DNA of 9,125 bases from Chitinophagaceae bacterium. GTDB taxonomy: Bacteria; Bacteroidota; Bacteroidia; Chitinophagales; Chitinophagaceae. The translations under genes and the position numbers were made by a program. How positions within the stretch are numbered: position 1 is the first letter of the stretch; each line of letters begins with the position of its first letter. The DNA lies in NCBI GenBank assembly GCA_003132765.1, contig PKYU01000099.1, forward strand, positions 3,068-12,192. The letters run 5' to 3'. Shown here piece after piece: positions 574-3,701 of this stretch. The notes beneath the pieces are model-generated. The model saw only the letters and a list, made by a program, of their open reading frames with translations, ran no database searches and was not told the DNA's origin.

Positions 574-1848
574 ATGAAAGTTGAAAAAAATAATATTGAC
601 AGCCATAATCAGTCCTTGCTGAAAGAACATCAGCGCAAATTTGATTTTGTTGCTGCTAATATTCAAAACACGGAAAGAGTAATTCAAAAACTGATTGATT
701 TTAACGTGGCGATTCCGAGCTGGGCGCTCGGTACGGGCGGAACAAGGTTTGGCAGATTCTCCGGATCGGGAGAACCCCGTTCACTGGAAGAGAAACTGGA
801 GGATGTTGGATTGTTGCATGCATTGAATCAATCAAGCGGGTCCATCTCCCTGCATATTCCATGGGATATTCCTGAAAATTATGTCGCAATAAAATCTTTA
901 GCTGCCCAACTTGGATTGAAGTTTGATGCCATTAATTCCAATACATTCCAGGATCAAAAGAACCAGCCACTGAGTTACAAATTCGGTTCATTGCAAAATG
1001 TAAATACAGCCATTCGCAGGCAGGCGATTGAACATAATATCGAAGTAATAAAGCATGGCGCTGAACTCGGTTCCAAAGCGCTGACTGTTTGGTTGAGCGA
1101 TGGCAGTTGTTTTCCCGGGCAATTGAATTTTCGAAAAGCATTTCAAAATACCCTGGAAAGTTTGCAGGAGATCTATGCCGCATTGCCCAACGACTGGAAA
1201 GTATTTATAGAATACAAGGCTTACGAACCTAATTTTTATTCGATGACCGTTGGTGATTGGGGACAATCATTATTATATACCAGTAAACTGGGCCCTAAAG
1301 CTTTTACGCTTGTTGACCTTGGCCATCATTTGCCCAATGCCAATATTGAACAGGTCGTCGCTTTATTATTAATGGAAGGCAAACTTGCAGGCTTCCATTT
1401 TAATGATAGTAAATATGGTGATGATGATTTAACGGTGGGTAGTATTAAACCCTATCAATTGTTCTTAATTTTTAATGAGCTGGTAGAAGGAATGGATGCC
1501 AGAGGAATGGATCACGCGAAAGATTTAGGATGGATGATTGATGCCAGCCACAATGTGAAGGATCCATTGGAAGATTTATTGCAATCTGTTGAAGCTATTA
1601 TGATAGCATATGCGCAATCCTTATTGGTTGACAGGAAAAAACTGGATGCGTCACAGGATAGTAATGATGTAGCCGGGGCACAGGAAATTTTGCAAGATAC
1701 ATTTCGCACAGATATAAGAGCTATTGTGGCAGAAGCAAGATTGAGAAGCGGCGGCGCATTGAATCACATACAATTTTTCAGGGAACAAAAGATTAGAGAA
1801 CAATTAACTAAAGAAAGAGGAAGTAAAACAGTAGCGACAGGATTGTGA
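574..1848 (+). CDS. rhaI: L-rhamnose isomerase, Pseudomonas stutzeri subtype
   Basis: This cytoplasmic, metal-dependent TIM-barrel enzyme converts L-rhamnose to L-rhamnulose, the first committed step of the pathway. The 424-residue product belongs to the P. stutzeri/rhizobial subtype, not to the E. coli RhaA type. The expected metal and substrate residues are present: Glu213 and Lys215 in 'FIEYKAYEPNF', Asp248 and His251 in 'VDLGHHLPN', His275 in 'GFHFNDSKYGDDDL' with Asp283/Asp285, and Asp323 in 'GWMIDASHNVKDP'. Their spacing fits the P. stutzeri set (Glu219, Asp254, His257, His281, Asp289, Asp327) with a small constant offset. The N-terminal 'GTGGTRFGRFSGSGEPR' (residues 53-69) is also typical. 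The stop codon TGA (1846-1848) is itself part of the first heptad of the repeat array that follows, so an insertion ends exactly here. An AT-rich gap of 59 bases separates the gene from rhaM. Confidence 0.95.
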   Translation: MKVEKNNIDSHNQSLLKEHQRKFDFVAANIQNTERVIQKLIDFNVAIPSWALGTGGTRFGRFSGSGEPRSLEEKLEDVGLLHALNQSSGSISLHIPWDIPENYVAIKSLAAQLGLKFDAINSNTFQDQKNQPLSYKFGSLQNVNTAIRRQAIEHNIEVIKHGAELGSKALTVWLSDGSCFPGQLNFRKAFQNTLESLQEIYAALPNDWKVFIEYKAYEPNFYSMTVGDWGQSLLYTSKLGPKAFTLVDLGHHLPNANIEQVVALLLMEGKLAGFHFNDSKYGDDDLTVGSIKPYQLFLIFNELVEGMDARGMDHAKDLGWMIDASHNVKDPLEDLLQSVEAIMIAYAQSLLVDRKKLDASQDSNDVAGAQEILQDTFRTDIRAIVAEARLRSGGALNHIQFFREQKIREQLTKERGSKTVATGL

Positions 1849-1885
1849 GTTGTCAGTGGTGAATGGTGAGTGGTGAGAGGAGAGT
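1844..1885 (+). repeat. Left array of degenerate heptanucleotides (six units)
   Basis: There are six head-to-tail 7-mers: TGTGAGT, TGTCAGT, GGTGAAT, GGTGAGT, GGTGAGA, GGAGAGT. The consensus is roughly KGTGAGT. The first unit includes the TGA stop of rhaI. The array is the inverse of the one at 2299-2354. Short tandem heptanucleotide repeats are known from filamentous cyanobacteria; these resemble them in unit length only. Confidence 0.85.
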
Positions 1886-1934
1886 AATTAGGGTTGTGTA
1901 TTTTTATACAAATCTATTATTCAACCCTTTAATT
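1886..1934 (+). other. Hairpin-forming leader upstream of the four-helix-bundle ORF
   Basis: AATTAGGGTTG (1886-1896) can pair with CAACCC (1922-1927) and TAATT (1930-1934), giving an 11-bp stem with a two-base bulge. Inside the loop GTAT (1898-1901) can pair with ATAC (1906-1909). The stem ends eight bases before the ATG at 1943. No T-run follows it directly, so it does not look like a terminator; it could be a leader structure or an element-specific RNA fold. No function is known. Confidence 0.35.
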
Positions 1935-1942
1935 ATGAAGCT

Positions 1943-2310
1943 ATGTTTTTAGAACTTGCACACACAAAATTAAATGTTTACCAGTTTTCACAGGAATTAG
2001 CTCTTGAATGTTACCGTGTGACAAAAAAATTTCCTTCAGACGAAAAATTTGCTATGATTTCGCAAATAAGGAGAGCAGCGGTTTCGGTTCACCTGAATAT
2101 CGCTGAAGGATGTTCAAGAAAATCACAAAAGGAACGAAACAGTATTTTGAAATCGTCAGGGGATCAGTGATTGAAATTGATAGCGCTATTGGAATCGCAA
2201 ACAGACTGGAATATGCGAGCCTTGAACAACTGCAGCCATTAGGAGAGTCAATAATAAAGACATTTAAACTAATAAGTGGTATGATAAAAAATGAGGACAT
2301 TCACAACTGA
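1943..2310 (+). pseudogene. Four-helix-bundle protein (S23 / 23S rRNA intervening-sequence family), frameshifted
   Basis: The first frame (1943 to about 2140) encodes the N-terminal half: MFLELAHTKLNVYQF, then 'SQIRRAAVSVHLNIAEG' and 'CSRKSQKER', the hallmark of this family. The second frame (about 2140-2310) continues with QYFEIVRGSVIEIDSAIGIA and ends 'GESIIKTFKLISGMI', again exactly as the family does. Adding one A to the AAA at 2137-2139 would read ERKQYFEIVRG and restore a protein of about 122 residues, the normal length. As given, the first frame stops at 2168-2170 after 75 residues. The last codons (Asp-Ile-His-Asn-stop) run into the right repeat array. Members are small all-helical proteins that form oligomers. 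They resemble the Avd accessory protein of diversity-generating retroelements, and their cellular role is mostly unknown. An ATG at 2110 could start the second half alone, but would give an incomplete bundle. Confidence 0.85.
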
Positions 2311-2354
2311 CCACTCACAACTCACAACTCAAACTGACCATTCACAATTCACAA
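2299..2354 (-). repeat. Right array of degenerate heptanucleotides (eight units, inverted relative to the left array)
   Basis: On the + strand the units are ATTCACA, ACTGACC, ACTCACA, ACTCACA, ACTCAA (one base short), ACTGACC, ATTCACA, ATTCACA, then a final A. On the other strand they read as the same KGTSARt heptads seen at 1844-1885. The array contains the last codons and the TGA stop (2308-2310) of the four-helix-bundle reading frame and runs up to the kinase start codon at 2355. Confidence 0.88.
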
Positions 2355-3701
2355 ATGAAAAGAACCCCTGTCATAGCAATCTTTGATATAGGCAAGACGA
2401 ATAAAAAATTATTATTGTTTGATGAGGGTTATAAATTGGTTTATGAAGAAAGTGTACAGTTGGAGGAAACAATAGACGAAGATGGTTTTTCCTGTGAGGA
2501 CATTCATTTATTGACTCAATGGATAAAAGATTCATTTGACACAATAACAAATAATGAAAAATTTCAAATAAAAGCTGTCAACTTTACTGCTTATGGTGCC
2601 AGTTTTGTTAATTTTGATGAATCCCGGAATGTAATACCTCCATTATATAATTATCTAAAACCATTTCCTGACAAGTTGCGGGAACGATTCTATAATAAGT
2701 ATGGCGGTGAAAGTAATTTTTCTAAAATAACAGCATCACCTGTTTTAGGGAATCTAAATTCAGGCATGCAATTGTATCGCTTGAAATATGAAAAGCCGGA
2801 AATGTTTTCTAAAATAAAATATGCTTTACATCTACCTCAGTATATAAGTTTTGTTCTTACAGGAAAAATATTTTCTGATATTACCAGTATTGGCTGCCAT
2901 ACGAATTTGTGGGATTTTCAAAAGAATACTTATCATGCCTGGGTTAAAAAAGAAGGTATAGAAAAAATATTGGCCCCAATTATCCGAAGTGATAAAATTG
3001 CCGATTTTATCAATGAAAACATTCCTGCCGGCATTGGATTGCACGATAGTTCTGCCGCATTAATCCCATATTTAATTTCATTCAGTGAGCCATTCATATT
3101 AATTTCAACCGGAACCTGGTGTATTACACTCAATCCATTCAATAATCAACCGTTAACCGATGACGAACTGAAACAGGATTGCCTTTGCTATTTAACCTAT
3201 GAGGGAAAGCCGGTGAAAGCCTCCCGGTTATTTGCTGGTAACGAACATGAAATAGAAGTAAAAAGATTGTCGGAGCATTTTGGAAAATCTTTTGATTGTT
3301 ATAAAAATGTACATTTCGATTCTGAAATCATAAAGAGAACTTTCCCTTTTAAAAATGAGTCAATGCGGGATTTAAATTTGTTTGCCAGTTATGAAGAAGC
3401 CTATCATCAATTAATGGGGAATATTATTGCACAGCAGGTTACCAACACCAATCTTATATTTAAACGTACAGCGTGCAAACGGATTTTTGTAGATGGCGGG
3501 TTTAGTAGTAATCCGGTTTATATGAATTTGCTATCCGGGGCATTTCCCCGCATGGAAGTATTTGCTGCAATGGTTCCTCAGGCTTCTGCATTAGGTGCCG
3601 CTTTCGTTCTGCACCAGCACTGGAATAGTAAAGCTTTACCTACTGATCTTATTGAATTGAAATATTATCCAACGAAAAAAAAAACAACTATCTCTAAATA
3701 A
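2355..3701 (+). CDS. rhaB: FGGY-family carbohydrate kinase, probable L-rhamnulokinase
   Basis: It probably phosphorylates L-rhamnulose to L-rhamnulose-1-phosphate in the cytoplasm using ATP. The 448-residue product has the two actin-like domains of FGGY kinases. Phosphate-1 loop: 'IFDIGKTNKKLLLFD' (residues 9-23). The catalytic aspartate is probably Asp231 in 'GIGLHDSSAAL'; this HD-(T/S)-x-(S/A)-A form is the one in rhamnulokinases. Phosphate-2 loop: 'LISTGTWCITLNPF' (249-262). Adenosine site: 'VDGGFSSNPVY' (379-389), then 'PQASALGAAF' (408-417). It is about 40 residues shorter than E. coli RhaB. The rhamnulose assignment rests on that motif and on its place between rhaI and a rhamnosidase; the symbol is given on that basis, and B. 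thetaiotaomicron uses rhaK. The bases before the ATG are entirely repeat sequence, so its translation start region came with the insert. The GH78 gene follows after 14 bases. Confidence 0.85.
   Translation: MKRTPVIAIFDIGKTNKKLLLFDEGYKLVYEESVQLEETIDEDGFSCEDIHLLTQWIKDSFDTITNNEKFQIKAVNFTAYGASFVNFDESRNVIPPLYNYLKPFPDKLRERFYNKYGGESNFSKITASPVLGNLNSGMQLYRLKYEKPEMFSKIKYALHLPQYISFVLTGKIFSDITSIGCHTNLWDFQKNTYHAWVKKEGIEKILAPIIRSDKIADFINENIPAGIGLHDSSAALIPYLISFSEPFILISTGTWCITLNPFNNQPLTDDELKQDCLCYLTYEGKPVKASRLFAGNEHEIEVKRLSEHFGKSFDCYKNVHFDSEIIKRTFPFKNESMRDLNLFASYEEAYHQLMGNIIAQQVTNTNLIFKRTACKRIFVDGGFSSNPVYMNLLSGAFPRMEVFAAMVPQASALGAAFVLHQHWNSKALPTDLIELKYYPTKKKTTISK

Follow-up and report, generated by a model that had tools for sequence, protein, structure and literature searches.

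A block of 512 bases, built of heptad arrays that are inverted at its two ends and a gene of the S23 family between them, takes up the whole junction between two rhamnose genes (rhaI and an FGGY kinase gene) in a Chitinophagaceae bacterium. It lies in a 9,125-nt stretch of contig PKYU01000099.1 (the window, by which we mean the whole stretch analysed). The block is likely a DNA element, kin to the intervening sequences (IVS) of 23S rRNA genes, with a putative action of S23 in trans on heptad ends. Judging from sequence comparison, we tentatively favor the more specific reading that the S23 protein probably recognises the arrays and would help heptad-bounded elements to insert or persist at gene junctions.

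Anatomy of the block

The features of the block and its neighbors are:

574..1848, + strand: rhaI, TIM-barrel isomerase, upstream neighbor (name from the original prediction; Pfam match just below cut-off)
1843..1885, + strand: left heptad array, six KGTSART-type units, G-rich strand reading inward; covers the last codon and stop of rhaI
1943..2170, + strand: N-terminal part of the S23/PF05635 gene, read from ATG 1943 and ending at a premature stop
2131..2310, + strand: S23 gene, C-terminal part, in the -1 frame; one-base frameshift placed by eye near 2131-2140
2299..2354, - strand: right heptad array made of eight inverted units, of which one has 6 nt; ends at the base preceding the kinase ATG
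2355..3701, + strand: FGGY kinase, downstream neighbor, at most 22 nt from rhaI in 6 of 8 related junctions

The original prediction, made from the window alone, described six heptads on the left, an S23-type gene, eight inverted heptads on the right, and complementary outer ends, and all of this is borne out. TRF calls the left array at 1845-1885 (period 7, 5.9 copies) and the right array at 2301-2354 (period 7, 7.9 copies), and their period-7 scores (14 and 13) were reached by none of 1000 dinucleotide shuffles of the flanks. The arms are complementary over 31 nt at 84%, and the inverted-repeat score of the flanks is 17, where the best of 1000 dinucleotide shuffles scored 14. The block was also said to fit exactly between a stop and a start codon. 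At the right end the kinase ATG at 2355 directly follows the array; at the left end the rhaI stop is 1846-1848, so the array runs over it and over the last rhaI codon.

The S23 gene scores 76.3 bits against PF05635 (cut-off 33.8) over profile positions 2-63 only, and 67.6 against TIGR02436, four helix bundle protein (cut-off 24), again over the N-terminal part only. It lacks a full-length single open frame; its two halves lie in two frames. The frame of ATG 1943 covers positions 2-64 of a custom profile and ends at the stop 2168-2170, and profile positions 54-104 are found in the -1 frame, ending at 2310. This break is new here, having been overlooked earlier. It could represent decay or an assembly error, the latter being possible because the assembly is in 623 contigs and 72% complete. 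Unless the assembly is wrong, the window’s own copy has likely decayed.

Unlike an IVS, the block is not located in a 23S rRNA gene but between rhaI and the FGGY kinase; like an IVS, it has complementary ends that are capable of forming a stem.

Unoccupied sites in relatives and plasmids

The rhaI gene occurs in 8 of 20 genomes of the genus, the window’s own included, and eight rhaI-kinase junctions could be read in six other genomes. At six of the eight (five genomes) the block is absent and the gap measures -4 to +22 nt, compared with 506 nt in the window, which makes a gain the simplest account of the block. The two rhaI copies of genome G005 (L056, L061) have similar kinase gaps of 162-164 nt, without clear heptads and of another kind. 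Genome G012 combines two of the tight junctions (L055, L060) with an intact S23 gene elsewhere (L038) that has the same heptad word as the window.

Insertion, as originally predicted, is upheld by these tight junctions and also by unoccupied plasmid sites. In Picosynechococcus PCC 7003 an element lies in sense within a CRISPR-cas operon (cas10-S23-cmr3, L166), and PCC 7002 has a 12-nt junction at the same place. One Nostoc plasmid site holds an S23 element in two plasmids (L163, L292) and a 52-nt spacer in two others (L291, L293), the plasmids compared being those of Nostoc edaphicum or C052 against C057. At the same site, Nostoc sp. ATCC 53789 pNsp_c (L290, 724-985) shows similar heptads of GGGAAC type as an inverted pair, and no S23 gene.

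A further element sits in sense orientation within a CRISPR-cas operon of Anabaena sp. 90 pANA02 (cas6-S23-cas4, L164). The pairing of Anabaena 90 with Dolichospermum was rejected as not cleanly unoccupied, because Dolichospermum has a 245-nt sequence without heptads and a differing annotated downstream start. No target duplication, the short direct repeat expected of an IS or MITE of that type, was seen by eye at the PCC 7003/7002 and Nostoc junctions, where the spacer is replaced instead.

A class of S23 elements across hosts

Flanks were compared by the best ungapped complementarity within 300 nt on each side of a gene (+1/-2, threshold score 13). In the first set, 32 of 48 S23 genes reach 13, as do 1.3% of 300 mismatched flank pairs, and in direct orientation 1 of 48 does so. 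Among other genes the threshold was reached by 7 of 280 in tiles of genome G023 and by 1 of 36 beside the 48 loci, thus 8 of 316 (Fisher p 1.4e-26 against S23 genes), and by none of a further 64 genes located no more than 300 nt from an S23 gene. A second set, the best-scoring loci of 20 genomes chosen for many KGTSART arrays, gave 24 of 30. Later sets gave 9 of 10 in relatives and 5 of 6 in viral contigs.

Pooling the earlier sets with 80 named loci, 40 loci from six relatives and six chosen plasmid loci gave, after de-duplication, 201 distinct S23 genes. Matches above E 1e-6, flanks shorter than 150 nt, loci identical in their first 180 nt and same-strand second matches within 500 nt were left out. 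Complementary flanks are present at 141 of the 201, a sample that is not random because most loci were chosen by best score, versus 14 of 600 mismatched flank pairs; the remaining 60 give no signal at threshold 13. By source, the counts are 1/1 for the window, 78/108 for relatives, 56/86 for named loci and 6/6 for plasmids.

The family is widespread, with PF05635 matches in 50 of 59 genomes, the window’s own included. By record title, the named set is mostly from Bacteroidota, with others from Treponema, Clostridia, Planctomycetes, SAR324 and elsewhere; the plasmid loci comprise five from cyanobacteria and one from Bernardetia. S23 genes flanked on both sides by very regular ACGTTCA/ACGTTGA arrays were seen on two IMG/VR contigs (L359, L360).

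S23 genes generally lie in sense between co-directional neighbors. Where an ORF of at least 90 aa was present within 700 nt on both sides (194 of the 201), both neighbors are on the S23 strand at 175 loci and both on the opposite strand at 6. Both neighbors share the strand for 31 of 92 control genes of 90-250 aa in G023. The arms fit closely between the neighbors, with a median of 4 nt from the upstream stop to the left arm (10-90%: -9 to 19) and of 12 nt from the right arm to the downstream start (0 to 49). In Flavobacterium columnare, a four helix bundle gene is listed between the genes for guanylate kinase and nicotinic acid mononucleotide adenylyltransferase (PMC5524665, Table 5), which is another housekeeping-gene junction.

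S23 proteins are under purifying selection: all 56 pairs compared at 70-98.5% identity have a pN lower than pS, and among 25 of these pairs dN/dS, where defined, is 0.03-0.13. S23 copies that share a genome have mostly diverged far from one another (median identity 0.28-0.32 in four genomes, highest 0.84), so there is no sign of recent bursts. Scanned S23 proteins gave matches to PF05635, TIGR02436 and two hypothetical-protein models, and to Avd models below cut-off. No known nuclease or transposase domain was detected in them, nor an HuH tyrosine transposase. Structures have been solved (2gsc, 2rld), and the protein is described as lacking a known function in the excerpt of the Coxiella IVS paper that we draw on (PMC4990558).

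Words and periods of the arms

Period 7 is the strongest at 147 of the 201 S23 loci and period 8 at 26. On the sense strand, the left arm is rich in G (0.277, versus 0.093 for C), with a positive skew in 123 and a negative one in 8 of the 141 elements; from either end, therefore, it is the G-rich strand that reads inward.

Heptad words vary between loci: the two arms at a locus match, and matches with arms at other loci are rare. Word sharing between loci in the same orientation increases with S23 protein identity, from <1% of pairs below 45% to 3% at 50-60%, 20% at 60-70% and 61% above 70%, and in the opposite orientation it is at most 0.3%. Since only 20% of pairs share a word at 60-70% identity, strict recognition of a word by its protein is unsupported. 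We accordingly rejected strict word-protein co-evolution: word turnover outpaces the proteins, and words are looser than the period. KGTSART was likewise rejected as an S23 signature, as a perfect tandem pair occurs in the 300-nt flanks of only 6 of the 201 loci (the window, L038, L149, L252, L273 and L186), three of which (L273, L252, L149) are from KGTSART-rich genomes. Among the 30 best-scoring S23 loci of the 20 genomes chosen for KGTSART arrays, a single one bears the word.

The period follows the S23 protein tree. In a tree restricted to 108 proteins whose period is clear, built on few columns and with bootstrap not settled, the 15 period-8 rows require 8 changes compared with 14.4 in shuffles, and 0 of 500 shuffles were as low. 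Period clusters with S23 clade between host families too.

Arrays away from S23 genes

Many arrays lie away from S23 genes. In 400 kb of G023 without S23, 20 period-7 arrays score at least 12, versus 10 for the other periods from 4 to 13 together, and several are inverted pairs with short spacers. In S23-bearing tiles, period 7 is also the commonest of periods 4-13. S23-less arrays are found in all gene orientations. In tiles of five genomes, the coding strand of arrays within 50 nt of a stop is G-rich in 25, C-rich in 9 and tied in 3; for arrays at most 50 nt from a start, these counts are 5, 15 and 3.

Genomes that carry S23 are richer in these arrays. Tiles without S23 genes contain 46 period-7 arrays in 800 kb for 5 S23-bearing genomes, versus 4 in 580 kb for 7 S23-free genomes (p 0.013 by genome). 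The word counts that follow take in arrays flanking S23 genes and come from the 64 genomes, within three id ranges, that had counts of both S23 and words, with array-rich genomes included only if inside those ranges; these genomes are not statistically independent, and several of them are incomplete. KGTSART is present in 23 of 47 S23-bearing genomes, at 506 places, and in none of 17 S23-free genomes. AAGTNNT is present in 15/47 versus 1/17, and either word in 28/47 versus 1/17 (p 1.2e-4). At least 10 word places occur in 12/47 versus 0/17 genomes (p 0.026) and at least 20 in 9/47 versus 0/17 (p 0.098), and word places correlate with S23 number (Spearman 0.66). In within-genus comparisons for 26 genera, the genome richer in arrays has more S23 genes in 17, fewer in 7 and equal numbers in 2 (p 0.064).

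The original prediction would fail if heptad arrays of this type were as frequent away from S23-type genes as beside them. Taken literally, it does so for the KGTSART word, as an S23 gene lies within ~1.5 kb at only one of 29 loci newly fetched around KGTSART arrays, and few S23 loci bear the word (above); the word is nevertheless absent from the 17 S23-free genomes. In the window’s genome all five KGTSART places belong to the 1843-2354 block, and there is one further KGTSART array only, of 3 units. In four genomes, 14/40, 4/9, 2/5 and 0/8 of the arrays lying away from S23 genes resemble S23 flanks of the same genome; summed over three other genomes each, the matches number 15, 2, 0 and 2. The own-genome match exceeds that to other genomes in three of the four and failed to do so in one.

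In some genomes, word places far exceed the number of S23 genes. Genome G112 has 339 KGTSART places, and G022 has 454 AAGTNNT places and an S23 locus (L032) that bears AAGTNNT. In another genome (G092:C1:19944-20228), five AAGTNNT arrays are exactly 65 nt apart, as if the heptad unit itself were tandem-repeated.

A putative role of S23 in trans

We infer a putative trans role of S23 from the co-occurrence of gene and arrays, the words they share and the clade-bound period. The element would move as DNA, and S23 expressed from the host operon transcript would bind heptad arrays and act in trans on elements with or without their own S23 gene. Expression from the host transcript would explain the sense orientation. 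The words may be renewed by slippage together with copying between arms.

Alternatively, a host factor inserts and renews the arrays, and S23 is a passenger, or protects the host, and tolerates them, the link arising through shared lineage habits. The lack of a known catalytic domain in S23, a word turnover faster than protein change and the excess of word places over S23 genes would all suit this alternative. S23-free genomes from many genera are poor in arrays, though, and the period clusters by S23 clade even between host families, and we regard a passenger role as somewhat unlikely.

RNA pairing or a DNA element

The original prediction went on to propose that the block is the mRNA or intergenic counterpart of an rRNA IVS, whose arms could pair in the operon transcript and so split rhaM-rhaI from the kinase-rhamnosidase message. 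In the fuller form of this explanation considered here, RNase III would cut the stem and free the S23 message, and the stem would be what selection maintains. The arms do pair in the predicted fold of the window (z -2.41), the sense orientation of the class fits, and in the Coxiella IVS, a substrate of RNase III, heptamers adjoin S23, according to the excerpt of PMC4990558. The antisense strand of the window folds equally well, however (z -2.57), and S23-less arrays do not keep to one gene orientation. We reasoned that selected pairing of the sense RNA should raise G-U above A-C, and that mutation alone should leave the two alike. The arm pairs of the 141 elements comprise 3463 Watson-Crick, 90 G-U, 109 A-C and 255 other pairs, so selection for pairing of the operon RNA is unsupported, and an RNA stem was rejected as a conserved feature. 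With no RNA-type wobble excess, this explanation is unlikely. The result counts against selection on the stem, not against incidental cutting; by analogy with rRNA IVS, it is possible that the ends pair and are cut by RNase III as a side effect.

The idea that arrays are slippage-made intergenic clutter, with S23 genes as ordinary small operon genes among them by chance, would suit the prevalence of period 7 in S23-bearing tiles and of KGTSART arrays away from S23 genes, but is improbable given how rarely other genes have complementary flanks, the matching of arms within and rarely across loci, the poverty of S23-free genomes in arrays and a period that follows the S23 protein tree.

Relation to known systems

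By its protein, ends and heptamers, the block groups with a class of S23 elements that includes the rRNA IVS, in keeping with the kinship first proposed. The resemblance to the 23S rRNA IVS extends to the S23 family, complementary ends, sense orientation and, in the Coxiella IVS, heptamers beside the ORF (excerpt of PMC4990558). Unlike the IVS, the block occupies a stop/start junction of protein genes, without sign of selected RNA pairing. No rRNA was found around S23 in 16 chosen loci scanned with Rfam, which returned one match, Flavo-1.

Avd/bAvd proteins of diversity-generating retroelements show distant similarity to one S23 protein (L022, E 3.5e-6), but S23 scores below both cut-offs, and no reverse transcriptase domain was found in four window neighbors scanned with Pfam. 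REP elements and their RAYT proteins occur as many short, dispersed, gene-free repeats and few gene-bearing copies per genome. S23 elements similarly combine gene-free repeats with few gene-bearing copies in one genome. They differ in lacking an HuH tyrosine transposase and in having tandem units of 7 or 8 bases, whose words change fast.

Intergenic heptamers are described for Xanthomonas (GGGAATC) and Nostoc (GGGGA(C/T)T) in excerpts of PMC4692102, for Beggiatoaceae (TAACTGA) in those of PMC4679880 and, as tandem heptamers, for prokaryotes at large in those of PMC6344855. The Xanthomonas and Nostoc heptamers are reported to lie on the coding strand directly downstream of stops and on the non-coding strand directly upstream of starts (excerpts of PMC4692102), and thus share period 7, intergenic location and stop/start polarity with the arrays here. 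Inverted heptamer pairs are also reported in Xanthomonas, in the part of that literature we draw on. The excerpts of these three papers, unlike the present analysis, draw no link to S23; they settle on no function. In the parts of the open-licence literature covered, the Coxiella IVS paper was the only one found to connect S23 or four-helix-bundle proteins with heptamers.

The S23-heptad link joins two puzzles, the function of S23 and the heptamer repeats. It offers a protein that can be tested for action on a nucleic-acid site, and it predicts which genomes should hold arrays. A broader proposal, possible though on the doubtful side, is that S23 proteins are the trans agents behind a large share of bacterial intergenic heptamers, with each cassette bearing heptad ends of its own and seeding gene-free elements at stop/start junctions throughout the genome, and the protein fold setting the period (7 or 8). 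If true, the 23S rRNA IVS would be the rRNA-borne minority of the class.
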